Shown one piece after another: positions 9,931 through 14,122 of a DNA stretch of 34,965 bases (its first letter is position 1; each line of letters opens with the position of its first letter). This DNA is from an uncultured Armatimonadota bacterium. GTDB lineage: Bacteria; Armatimonadota; Fimbriimonadia; Fimbriimonadales; Fimbriimonadaceae. The notes beneath the pieces are model-generated. The model saw nothing but the letters and a program-made list of their open reading frames with translations. It was not told the DNA's origin and ran no database searches. The stretch is taken from positions 1-34,965 of the forward strand of contig CALMEF010000032.1 of NCBI GenBank assembly GCA_937862825.1, given 5' to 3'. Both the position numbers and the translations under genes were made by a program.

Positions 9931-10866
9931 TTACACCGTTACGACTCTGGCTTGATCGAAAAGCAACTCGACGACGCCGAGACGAGCGATTTCGGACCCG
10001 TTGGTCGTTGCTGTTGCCGCTCCGGCAGCAAGGCCCCACCTAAAGGCAGCATCCCACGGAGAGCCCCGTTCCAAGGCCGCGAGGAGTCCACCGATCATTG
10101 AATCACCGCTCCCTATCGTGCTGCAAGGTTCGATGGAAGGCGAAATCCCTTTCAGGCGGAGTTCTTCGGAGACCAGAACAGCGCCATCCTTGCCTTGGGA
10201 AATCACGACGACGCCATCGTCGCTGAGGGAGCCGAGCAGCTCGCTTGCGGCTTGGAAGGCATCGTCGTCGCTCACTATGGTTCGCCCAAGCAGGCGAGAC
10301 GCCTCGTGCGTGTTGGGCTTGATAAGATCAGGTTTCGCTTCTAAACCGTTACGTAACAACTCGCCGTCGGCGTCAAGAAAGACCTTCCAGCCAGCGGATT
10401 TTGCCATGAGGCCCAGTTGTCGGTAGATGGCTTTGTCCACGCTGGGGGGTACTGAACCGCAAAGGCACACCCAGCCCTCAAACTGCTCTAGACACGCGCC
10501 GAAGGTGCTCAAGAATGCATTGAGCTCATCGGATGAAATGTGCGGGCCGCGTTCATTGAGGGTAGTTGGTGGTCCGTCGCCGGCCTCGACCGAGATGTTG
10601 ACTCGGGTGCTTTCGGCTACCTCGGTCATGCGGAATGCGACCCCTTCGGCTTCGAGGACGGAACGAATCACCTGACCTGGGCCAGCACCAAGAAAACCGG
10701 TCGCCAAGGTGGTACCTCCCAACTCGGCGGCTACGCGGGATAGGTTCAAGCCCTTGCCGCCAGCATCCACTTCGGTTCTCACCACTCGGTTGGTATCGCC
10801 CAGTTTGAGCCCATCGACGAAGAGAGTACGGTCAATTGAAGGGTTCAGCGTGACCGTGAGGATCAT
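9931..10866 (-). CDS. PfkB-family sugar-phosphate kinase (1-phosphofructokinase/LacC-like)
   Basis: 311 aa. Motifs are LTVTLNPSIDRTLFV at the N-terminus, DAGGKGLNLSRVAAELG (PfkB signature 1, residues 34-50) and IGSGDSMIGG (signature 2) with the catalytic base Asp255. The first motif is typical of the 1-phosphofructokinase / tagatose-6-phosphate kinase subgroup rather than ribokinase. The expected reaction is ATP-dependent phosphorylation of a ketohexose phosphate. No PTS gene is adjacent, so FruK proper is not certain. Its start overlaps the pfkA stop (ATGA), so the two kinases are translationally coupled. Confidence 0.9.
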   Translation of the reverse strand: MILTVTLNPSIDRTLFVDGLKLGDTNRVVRTEVDAGGKGLNLSRVAAELGGTTLATGFLGAGPGQVIRSVLEAEGVAFRMTEVAESTRVNISVEAGDGPPTTLNERGPHISSDELNAFLSTFGACLEQFEGWVCLCGSVPPSVDKAIYRQLGLMAKSAGWKVFLDADGELLRNGLEAKPDLIKPNTHEASRLLGRTIVSDDDAFQAASELLGSLSDDGVVVISQGKDGAVLVSEELRLKGISPSIEPCSTIGSGDSMIGGLLAALERGSPWDAAFRWGLAAGAATATTNGSEIARLGVVELLFDQARVVTV

Positions 10867-11825
10867 TGAGCCATGACCCCAGCGAGCAGCAGTTTTTCGG
10901 GATCGACTGTTCGCTCCATGCTGAGGACGTACGTTAGCGGATGAGAGACCAGTTTGATGCCATCCACACCGGCCATTTCCGCTTTAAAGCCACTGATCAG
11001 GCGGTTCGCGGCCAACGCTCCAAGACGCAAGGCAAGGACCCGGTCAAAGGCGGTGGGACTGCCGCCGCGTTGCATGTGGCCGAGGACGAGGTAGCGGGCC
11101 TCGAATCCGGTGTTTTCCTCGATTACGTCACGTATATCGCTGGCTCGCGCCGCACCTTCAGCAACAATGATGATGCTACTCTTCTTGCCTCGCAGCGCCG
11201 AGGTCTTGATCATGTCGCAGACGTCCAGGACCGAGAACGGGACTTCGGGGATGAGGATGGCTTCGGCGCCACAGGCCAAGCCTGCCTCCAAAGCGATAAA
11301 GCCGTTGCGTCGTCCCATCACTTCGATGACAAACACTCGCTCGTGGGAATAGGCGGTGTCGCGGACGCGGTCAATCGCCATCAGTGCGCCGTTGACGGCG
11401 GTATCGAAGCCGATTGAGAAATCCGTTCCAGAGATGTCGTTGTCAATGGAACCCGGCACCCCGACGACCGGAAAGCCGAACTCTTCGTACAGGGTTAGGG
11501 CACCGGTAAGCGATCCGTCTCCGCCGATGACGACGAGTCCCTCGATCCCCTTTCGCCCCAAGATTTCCATGGCCCGTAGGCGGCCCTCGGGTTTTCGAAA
11601 CTCCTCGCTGCGCGCGGAGCGGAGAAACGTGCCGCCGTGGCTGATGATTCCGCCCACTGACTTGGAGTCCATCGGCACGGACTCATCGTGCATCAAGCCC
11701 TCGTAACCGTGGTGAAAGCCGATGACTTCGACGCCTCGCCCAATCGCCGCTCGGACGACGGCTCGTATTGCTGCGTTCATCCCTGGGGCGTCGCCGCCGC
11801 TGGTCAGAACGCCAATTCGCCTCAT
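10863..11825 (-). CDS. pfkA: ATP-dependent 6-phosphofructokinase
   Basis: 320 aa, the usual bacterial length. N-terminal GVLTSGGDAPGMNAAIR; G101-G-D-G-S105, where Gly104 marks an ATP-using rather than a PPi-using enzyme; PGSIDND (126-130) with the catalytic Asp128; then MGRRNGFIALEA and LGHMQRGGSPTAFDR. It converts fructose-6-phosphate to fructose-1,6-bisphosphate, the committed step of glycolysis. PGSIDND differs from the common PGTIDND by Thr to Ser, and MGR is followed by RNG. It lies 12 bp downstream of the candidate selenoprotein gene and overlaps the PfkB kinase gene. Confidence 0.96.
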   Translation of the reverse strand: MRRIGVLTSGGDAPGMNAAIRAVVRAAIGRGVEVIGFHHGYEGLMHDESVPMDSKSVGGIISHGGTFLRSARSEEFRKPEGRLRAMEILGRKGIEGLVVIGGDGSLTGALTLYEEFGFPVVGVPGSIDNDISGTDFSIGFDTAVNGALMAIDRVRDTAYSHERVFVIEVMGRRNGFIALEAGLACGAEAILIPEVPFSVLDVCDMIKTSALRGKKSSIIIVAEGAARASDIRDVIEENTGFEARYLVLGHMQRGGSPTAFDRVLALRLGALAANRLISGFKAEMAGVDGIKLVSHPLTYVLSMERTVDPEKLLLAGVMAQ

Positions 11826-11837
11826 ACAGATTCTATG

Positions 11838-12362
11838 CTACCGGAGATTGGAGAGTTCCTTCTTGATTTCCTGGACAATCTTGATCGCATCAAAGTACTT
11901 TTCGTCTTCGAGGATTTGGTGCCAATAGTCGGTTGGTTCAGGTGCATCCGCCTTGAACTCGATTCCTGAACGGAACAAGAAGAAGACATCGTAGGCCAGC
12001 GGCGAATCTCTCGGCACTTTAACGACCTTGCCGAAGTTGAGGGCAAGGCTCCGGTCTTTATCCCAGAAGTGGCGAACACGGGGATCTTTCACGATTCCAA
12101 CACCCTGCTTGGCCATCGCATCGTCATCGGTGCCATAGGCAGGCGTCCAGATGAAGTAGGGTTGTAGCCGCTTCGAGTCGACCTTTGCGAGCACCTGTTC
12201 TTGCACTTCACGAGCGCCGTTCAGACAGTTGACTCAGGTCGGCGAAAGAATGACCAAGAACCGAACTTGGTTCTTGGCCTTGTTGAAATCCTCTTTGAAC
12301 TTCGCGCCGTCAAGAAGAGGCCCTCCTTGCAATAAGGTCAATGCAAGCAGGGCTGACGTCAA
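11838..12362 (-). CDS. Thioredoxin-like secreted protein read through an in-frame TGA: candidate selenoprotein (UxxC)
   Basis: Read naively, the frame begins at a GTG at 12206 (122 aa). The same frame continues upstream across one TGA (12236-12234) to a TTG at 12362, whose bases overlap the stop of the M28 peptidase gene (TTGA), giving 174 codons. Residues 1-12 (MTSALLALTLLQ) resemble a short signal peptide. The context around the TGA is VRFLVILSPT-U43-VNC46-LNGAREVQ, the place where thioredoxin-fold proteins carry CxxC. A hairpin suited to be a bacterial SECIS follows. The C-terminal part (FIWTPAYGTDDDAM, RHFWDKDRSLALNFGK) looks like one intact domain. Family knowledge: Sec often replaces the first Cys of CxxC in thiol oxidoreductases. 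Alternatives are a Cys-to-stop mutation or a base error. Without recoding, the redox motif would be lost. Confidence 0.7.
12203..12217 (-). promoter_or_regulatory. Candidate bSECIS hairpin downstream of the TGA
   Basis: On the mRNA strand, 16 nt after the TGA, GCGCU-CGUGA-AGUGC can form a 5-bp stem (one G-U) with a 5-nt loop whose second base is G. Bacterial SECIS elements are coding-region hairpins at about this distance with a G early in the apical loop. A weaker outer pairing CUGU/ACAG could extend it. Confidence 0.5.
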
Positions 12363-14122
12363 CTTTGGACTCCGTCTCGCTCTTCGACGGTGATTTCGAC
12401 GGTCATTTCCTTGCCGTCGCGCAGGAACTTGATCTTGACCTTGTCGCCTGGCTTCGCCGTCTTCATGGCGTCGTTGAGGGTTTCGATGTCGGTTACGGCC
12501 TTGCCGTTGAACTCAGTGATTCGGTCACCACCTTTTAAGCCAGCCTTGTCAGCGGGGCTACCGGGAACCGAACCCGAAATGGCTGCTCCGGGACCGCCCG
12601 CGTTGTAGTCGGGAATGAAACCGACACGGATTCTGCGCTCGGTCGGAGCGGGAGTCTCTTCGGGCTTGGGGTCTGGCGGCGGAACGCGGCGATCGTCCGG
12701 CTTGTTGCCAAGGACGACCTTGGGGTCAAACTCCAGCTTGTTGCCCGGGGCAAGGAGGTGCCCGGGTTTGGGGGCCGCATTGGCCACCTTAACGGCGCCT
12801 TTCAAGTTGACCATGTCAAACGTGTCCTTTTCGGAGTGGTACTCGTTGGTGAGGCCCGTGTGCCAGAATAGGACCGGGACGTTGCGTCGTGCAAAGGAAG
12901 CCTGATCGCTGTCGCCACGGACGTGTTCAGCCGTGACGAGATTAAGGTCGGCCACTTTCACTTGATCCAGAACTGACTTCCAACCTTGGCTTGAACTGAG
13001 ACCGAAGACGTACACGTTGTTTTGGCGAACGGTGCCAATCATGTCCATGTTGAGTGTTGCCGAGGTTTTTGCGAGAATCTCAGGAAAGTCTCGGCAGAAA
13101 GCGTTTGATCCTACCAACCCGACTTCTTCGCCGCTCCAGCAGTGGAACATGATGGTTCGTCGATTGGTTTTCCACTGGCTCATTGCGGAAGCAAGGGAGA
13201 GCACAGCAGCAGTTCCGCTTCCATTGTCATCGGCACCAGCGTGCATCGCATCACTGTTGGTTCGTGAGCCGATCTCTCCAAAGCCGAGGTGATCGTAGTG
13301 GCCGCCAACAATAATGAATTCATCCTTCAGCACCGGGTCGTTGCCGGGAAGGATGCCAATGATGTTTCGGCCCGAACCTGCCCCTCTTTCCAGTTCGGTT
13401 GTAATCTTGATGCTCGAGCCCAGCACCTTGCTTGCTGGTGCCTTGGCCGCCTTGGCTGCGGCAAAGTCAAGGCCAGTCAAGCCCTTGAAATACTTGCTGT
13501 GGACGCCGGCTGCGACCATTTCGAGACTTGATGGCACGCCTTGCGAGCGATTGGTTCGCGGAAACTCGGCCCCACCTGCAGCGGATGGCCCAACAAAAAT
13601 GATGCCGACAGCCCCTTTTTCGCTGGCAGTTCGTGCCTTTCTGGTGTTCGAAACATTTTGCTTGCCTTCGGGTACGCCACGGAACGCCAAGACAACCTTG
13701 CCTTTGACGTCTACGCCGGAATAGTCATCCCAGCCTTCTTCCGCGAGGCCATAGCCGACGTAAACCAAACCGGCATCAACTGGTTTGGCATTGGCGGTAC
13801 CCGCGAGCGGCATATAGTCGGTTTCGATGGTCAGTGTTGCCGCGCCGGGGCCTGTGAAGGAAAGGGAGTTGTTCTTTCCGGGCCGCTGGTTGACGTTGAC
13901 CTCGAACGTGTGGATGTACGAGCCATCTTTGAACGGCTTCAGCCCAACCTTTTTGAAGTGGTTTTCAATGTAGGTTGCGGCAAGGTCTTGGCCTTTCGAG
14001 CCAGTAAGACGGCCTTCCAGTTCTGGAGAAACAAGGTAACGAAGGTGGCCCGCCATTTCCGATTCGGAAACGCTGTACGCATTCACCGAAAGTACGAGCC
14101 CGGCAAAAAGGGATGCCAGCAT
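12359..14122 (-). CDS. M28 family aminopeptidase with PA and PDZ domains
   Basis: 587 aa. An N-terminal signal peptide (MLASLFAGLVLSVNAYS) is followed by an M28 domain with an inserted PA domain (about residues 110-215). The di-zinc ligands are visible: H275 (GGHYDHLG), D298 (HAGADDNGSG), E333 after the catalytic E332 (GEEVGLVGS), D360 (LNMDMIG) and H429 (NEYHS). A Pro-rich linker (470-495) leads to a PDZ domain (498-582; GSPADKAGLKGGDRITEFNG). The mature protein is expected outside the cytoplasm and releases N-terminal amino acids from peptides. TATAAG lies 6 nt before the ATG. It heads the run that includes the candidate selenoprotein and pfkA. Confidence 0.94.
   Translation of the reverse strand: MLASLFAGLVLSVNAYSVSESEMAGHLRYLVSPELEGRLTGSKGQDLAATYIENHFKKVGLKPFKDGSYIHTFEVNVNQRPGKNNSLSFTGPGAATLTIETDYMPLAGTANAKPVDAGLVYVGYGLAEEGWDDYSGVDVKGKVVLAFRGVPEGKQNVSNTRKARTASEKGAVGIIFVGPSAAGGAEFPRTNRSQGVPSSLEMVAAGVHSKYFKGLTGLDFAAAKAAKAPASKVLGSSIKITTELERGAGSGRNIIGILPGNDPVLKDEFIIVGGHYDHLGFGEIGSRTNSDAMHAGADDNGSGTAAVLSLASAMSQWKTNRRTIMFHCWSGEEVGLVGSNAFCRDFPEILAKTSATLNMDMIGTVRQNNVYVFGLSSSQGWKSVLDQVKVADLNLVTAEHVRGDSDQASFARRNVPVLFWHTGLTNEYHSEKDTFDMVNLKGAVKVANAAPKPGHLLAPGNKLEFDPKVVLGNKPDDRRVPPPDPKPEETPAPTERRIRVGFIPDYNAGGPGAAISGSVPGSPADKAGLKGGDRITEFNGKAVTDIETLNDAMKTAKPGDKVKIKFLRDGKEMTVEITVEERDGVQS

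Follow-up and report, generated by a model that had tools for sequence, protein, structure and literature searches.

The window analyzed here, a stretch of 34,965 nucleotides from an uncultured member of the Fimbriimonadaceae (Armatimonadota), carries at positions 11838 to 12362 a complete gene predicted to encode a selenoprotein of 174 amino acids. Like all the window features described below, it lies on the minus strand. The upstream gene (12359..14122) encodes a peptidase of the M28 family that also has PA and PDZ domains (Pfam PF04389, PF13180 and PF02225), and the downstream gene (10863..11825) encodes a phosphofructokinase (PF00365, E = 2e-111). The TTG start (12362-12360) overlaps the peptidase stop codon TGA (12361-12359) in the sequence TTGA and is preceded by a probable ribosome-binding site, GGAG, at a distance of 7 nt (12370..12373). 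A TAG (11840-11838) ends the frame, which is crossed by a single in-frame TGA at 12236-12234. This TGA is codon 43 and stands in the context VILSPT-U-VNCLNGAREVQ, where it takes the first position of a UxxC motif. The presumed resolving residue of the motif, cysteine 46, is encoded by TGT at 12225..12227, and its column is invariant in an alignment of 16 sequences. The frame, the residues around the TGA, the 174-residue product with U at residue 43 and the placement of the gene between the peptidase and phosphofructokinase genes had all been given in a preliminary description of this DNA; the coordinates are exact, translation returns the same protein, and Pfam matches identify both neighbors.

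The product begins with a short hydrophobic leader (MTSALLALTLLQGGP; 12318..12362), probably a weak signal peptide. Relatives have longer leaders or lipoboxes, which make the earlier proposal of a secreted protein likely; the window protein's own leader is short and weak. By itself the open frame across the TGA proves little, as 19 of the window's 1,256 TGAs are flanked in a similar way, by 40 or more open codons on the upstream side and 100 or more on the downstream side.

Homologs and the residue at position 43

A contig scan with the window protein alone returned no match, and an alignment query was needed to find homologs of the window gene. The gene is present in 7 of 61 genomes (the source genome and 60 relatives), and a sweep of the Planctomycetota gave a match in ten genomes. 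With each gene counted once, the column of residue 43 holds TGA in 17 homologs besides the window gene (L020, L021, L022, L023, L025, L026, L027, L037, L041, L042, L043, L044, L081, L082, L083, L084 and L085), cysteine in six (L045, L046, L087, L088, L089 and L090) and threonine in one (L024); a further homolog, L086, ends before the motif and gives no residue at this column. The homologs with TGA come from the Armatimonadota, Planctomycetota, Acidobacteriota, Eremiobacterota and Zixibacteria, and judged from these sequences the family spans at least five bacterial phyla. Homologs with named sources belong to the Armatimonadetes (including one Fimbriimonadaceae genome), Planctomycetota, Pyrinomonadaceae, another Acidobacteria lineage, Eremiobacterota and Zixibacteria, several of their loci being the same contigs as those of the window's close relatives G024, G050 and G052, an identity that assigns the window to the Armatimonadota. 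In the threonine homolog (G013, contig C190), whose genome contains both selA and tRNA-Sec, an ACT codon replaces selenocysteine or cysteine; this is possibly an inactive or altered member of the family.

TGA alternating with cysteine at one column is an accepted signature of selenocysteine, and the computed alignment displays it. Homologs with TGA or cysteine at the column align with the gene as a single protein on both sides, over the 42 codons that precede the TGA and the 131 that follow. It is this homology, and not the open frame, that decides the case for a selenoprotein. Homologs with cysteine or selenocysteine at this column had been named beforehand as a check on the interpretation, as had the presence of selA, selB, selC and selD in the same genome. 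All four genes are there. In the source genome, an assembly of 336 contigs and 3.4 Mb that is 94% complete, they lie on separate contigs. Their scores, each higher than the cut-off, are 67.6 bits for a tRNA-Sec with anticodon UCA (tca in ARAGORN), 376 bits for SelB, 462 bits for SelA and 352 bits for SelD. The SelD of this genome (L018, on G000:C113) appears to be a selenoprotein itself, with the motif SCAG-U-A and a TGA at locus position 1531; downstream of that TGA is a hairpin, GGCGGA-CGUGC-UCCGCC, whose loop CGUGC resembles the CGUGA loop of the window gene.

The machinery also follows the gene among the relatives. A selA gene is present in 7/7 genomes that bear the family gene versus 34/61 overall (P = 0.012), and tRNA-Sec scores at least 69.5 bits in all six other gene-bearing Armatimonadota. 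A search for selA found none in G291, G292 and G293, which have homologs with TGA, and these genomes may be incomplete or misbinned. The tRNA-Sec of G291 scores 69.5 bits despite the missing selA match. G292 and G293, the genomes of L041 and L042, gave no convincing tRNA-Sec either, for which incomplete bins, misbinning and loss are the alternatives.

Were the TGA an ordinary stop codon, the gene would be a pseudogene or the product of an assembly error, or would yield a truncated or re-initiated protein of 122 amino acids. The mechanical list of open reading frames does give such a frame (11838-12206, with a GTG start at 12206), in a window where open frames across a TGA are not rare. The recurrence of the TGA at one column in 17 other homologs of several phyla, in alternation with cysteine, makes this explanation very improbable, and the 122-residue form would be missing both the active site and the first strand. 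An error in the reads at 12234-12236 is likewise very unlikely, because the same codon occupies the column in those 17 sequences. That the UGA is read as another amino acid, through a recoded genetic code or a near-cognate tRNA, is conceivable for any in-frame UGA (as tryptophan or cysteine) but has next to no probability here, where UGA is apparently an ordinary stop elsewhere in the window (as in the M28 peptidase gene), the column in relatives holds cysteine and not tryptophan, the genome has a complete selenocysteine machinery and the SECIS-type hairpin covaries. The pseudogene and alternative-code explanations are both rejected on the alternation of TGA with cysteine. The window gene thus very probably encodes a genuine selenoprotein, as first proposed, an interpretation backed by the TGA/cysteine column, the sel genes of the genome and the fold model described below.

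The hairpin after the TGA

A hairpin, GCGCU-CGUGA-AGUGC, lies 16 nt after the TGA (12203..12217), with the sequence, position and spacing that had been reported. It is of the bSECIS type, located just after the UGA and with a G early in the apical loop. Taken alone the window copy is not significant: about 11-18% of synonymous recodings contain such a hairpin, and the folding energy is average relative to recoded sequence (z = 0.12). Since an open frame and a hairpin are both common by chance, the initial observation was not enough to establish a selenoprotein.

Comparison among homologs is more informative. Seven sequences (the window gene, L020, L021, L025, L026, L027 and L037) form the same five pairs in the same register, with 100% of cells paired, and pairing falls to 20-57% of cells once the partner is slid. 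Two of the pairs have changed in a compensatory way, each from C-G to U-A, and each joins third codon positions. The chance of five pairs in one sequence under synonymous recoding is about 0.11-0.14. Multiplied over the six homologs besides the window gene, as though they were independent, this gives P ~5e-6, a product that overstates the strength of the evidence, since the sequences are related. The shuffle control gives a modest result for the pairs (11/500), since only seven sequences are in register. In L022 and L023 the loop CGUGA is retained on a stem displaced by two bases, and L041-L043 form another stem, from CUUCGG and CCGAA. The cysteine homologs L045 and L046 lack a hairpin of this kind. 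As evidence for a bSECIS element, the hairpin therefore holds through its covariation in register across homologs, and not as the single copy on which it had been proposed.

These features suggest how the gene would be expressed. With the hairpin 16 nt further on as the guide, SelB and Sec-tRNA-Sec would decode the UGA of codon 43 and so allow synthesis of the full-length protein of 174 amino acids; in the absence of selenium only the first 42 amino acids would be translated. The product is probably exported and would fold as a thioredoxin-like protein of the ResA/TlpA type, in which the selenolate of Sec43 would attack and Cys46 would resolve, the two forming the UxxC redox center. Selenocysteine insertion, export and the direction of the redox reaction are all steps that we infer.

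Fold and gene neighborhoods of the family

An AlphaFold2 model calculated from a 16-row alignment (pLDDT 95.8, pTM 0.91) has a thioredoxin-like fold. With residues numbered from position 12317, a strand spans 18-24, the motif 28-31 and a helix 29-43, so that, after the first central strand, the UxxC motif opens the first long helix, as in thioredoxin-like proteins. The best PDB folds found with Foldseek are ResA (the top match), CcmG, a secreted oxidoreductase of M. tuberculosis and human GPX8, with E ~1e-4 and TM ~0.5-0.6. The preliminary description had called the protein thioredoxin-like, and the confident model and these matches agree with it. A redox role for the window protein follows from the predicted fold and the motif.

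The neighborhoods of its relatives hint at what the protein might act on. MerT-type (mercury-uptake-type) genes adjoin the gene at five relatives' loci in three phyla, most with ArsR. In the Armatimonadota L049 (1915-3713), L051 (7307-10176) and L054 (7599-9638) have ArsR and a MerT-HMA protein beside the selenoprotein gene. The planctomycetal locus L037 (L037/L091; 2410-5447) has a neighboring MerT-HMA protein with a zf_CopZ domain, and in the Eremiobacterota L042 (714-1577) has a MerT-like gene immediately upstream, with an ArsR-like frame, recognized by eye, in front of it. In L051 a carboxymuconolactone-decarboxylase-like gene separates the MerT/ArsR genes from the selenoprotein gene. In L037 (4077-5444) the UxxC domain follows in frame a 300-residue N-terminal region that matched no Pfam model and is, by eye, possibly retroviral-protease-like. 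The main task of the selenoprotein could accordingly be the handling of soft metals, by reducing or binding them (for example mercury, beside MerT), instead of general thiol-disulfide exchange or antioxidant defense. The MerT-type genes in Armatimonadota, Planctomycetota and Eremiobacterota are consistent with this, as is the heavy-metal (HMA) domain fused to the C-terminus of the cysteine homologs L045 and L046. Against it, the flanks searched around the window copy, L047, L048 and L053 contain no MerT, and the nearest folds are thiol-disulfide oxidoreductases. On balance metal handling as the main task is possible but rather unlikely. The context, which comes from relatives, suggests that under soft-metal (mercury-type) stress part of the family may act on proteins or thiols, and the recurring ArsR-MerT neighborhood is a concrete hint at the function of the family.

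Three homologs (L023, L025 and L027) have a fused second thioredoxin-like domain that ends in PG/PS-U-R-x-Y and contains a second in-frame TGA, followed in each case by a hairpin around GGAGUUCC. Their sequences indicate that they are probably two-selenocysteine proteins. The C-terminal domains of L025 and L027 match the DF family (seleno)protein model NF049942 with E-values of 1.9e-8 and 3.4e-9, under its curated cut-off (34-37 versus 70 bits); NF049942 corresponds to hypothetical protein DF of PMC12013277. The window protein lacks this domain. A search of the source genome with this domain, for a separate DF-like partner, gave no match. DF-like domains with one in-frame TGA also occur at L067 (G026:C1) and L068 (G011:C35), in Armatimonadota genomes in which no UxxC gene was found. 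The two-selenocysteine fusions and the association with MerT are the more unusual parts of the family. Together they allow a speculative reading, one that we hold with little confidence, in which the window gene would belong to exported UxxC selenoproteins not yet described as a family, with an ancestral role in soft-metal (mercury-type) defense alongside MerT, and the two-selenocysteine forms would pass electrons between the second selenocysteine domain and the UxxC center.

Relation to known systems

The window protein matches no model in Pfam or NCBIfam (release 20.0). For the family, the best weak Pfam match is PF08534 (Redoxin), seen in 4 of 16 members with a best E-value of 6.6e-6, but its gathering cut-off is not reached, L025 scoring 24.8 versus 26.6 bits and the window protein giving no match. 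Table 1 of the review PMC13188914 lists a selenoprotein, HEU0032618.1, as a "Redoxin family protein" with the UxxC motif and PF08534, and an entry of the same name (MBA3499694.1) appears in PMC9312934. The two families share the UxxC motif and the affinity to PF08534, whereas the window protein gives no Pfam match of its own; compared by description only, the window family is possibly already listed under that name. Literature searches found no specific study of selenoproteins in Armatimonadota, and for selenoproteins with MerT only a review.

Mer-type gene clusters with ArsR, MerT and HMA domains include genes of the relatives, whereas the window copy lies between the M28 peptidase and phosphofructokinase genes. 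The gene adds, in the Armatimonadota, a probable selenoprotein family with neither a Pfam nor an NCBIfam release 20.0 model, and standard gene calling would lose the active site of its product. Because selenocysteine in the UxxC motif of thioredoxin-fold proteins is well known, the window gene is another case of a known type of protein. Its closest structural counterparts are proteins of the ResA/CcmG/TlpA type (PDB 2f9s and 1kng), with which the predicted protein shares the thioredoxin-like fold, probable export and redox residues spaced as in CxxC. It differs from them in sequence (11-22% identity, at a TM of about 0.5-0.6), in having selenocysteine for the first cysteine and in a conserved C-terminal stretch, AWDxY...PPxPxxWMHQL, that is particular to the window family.
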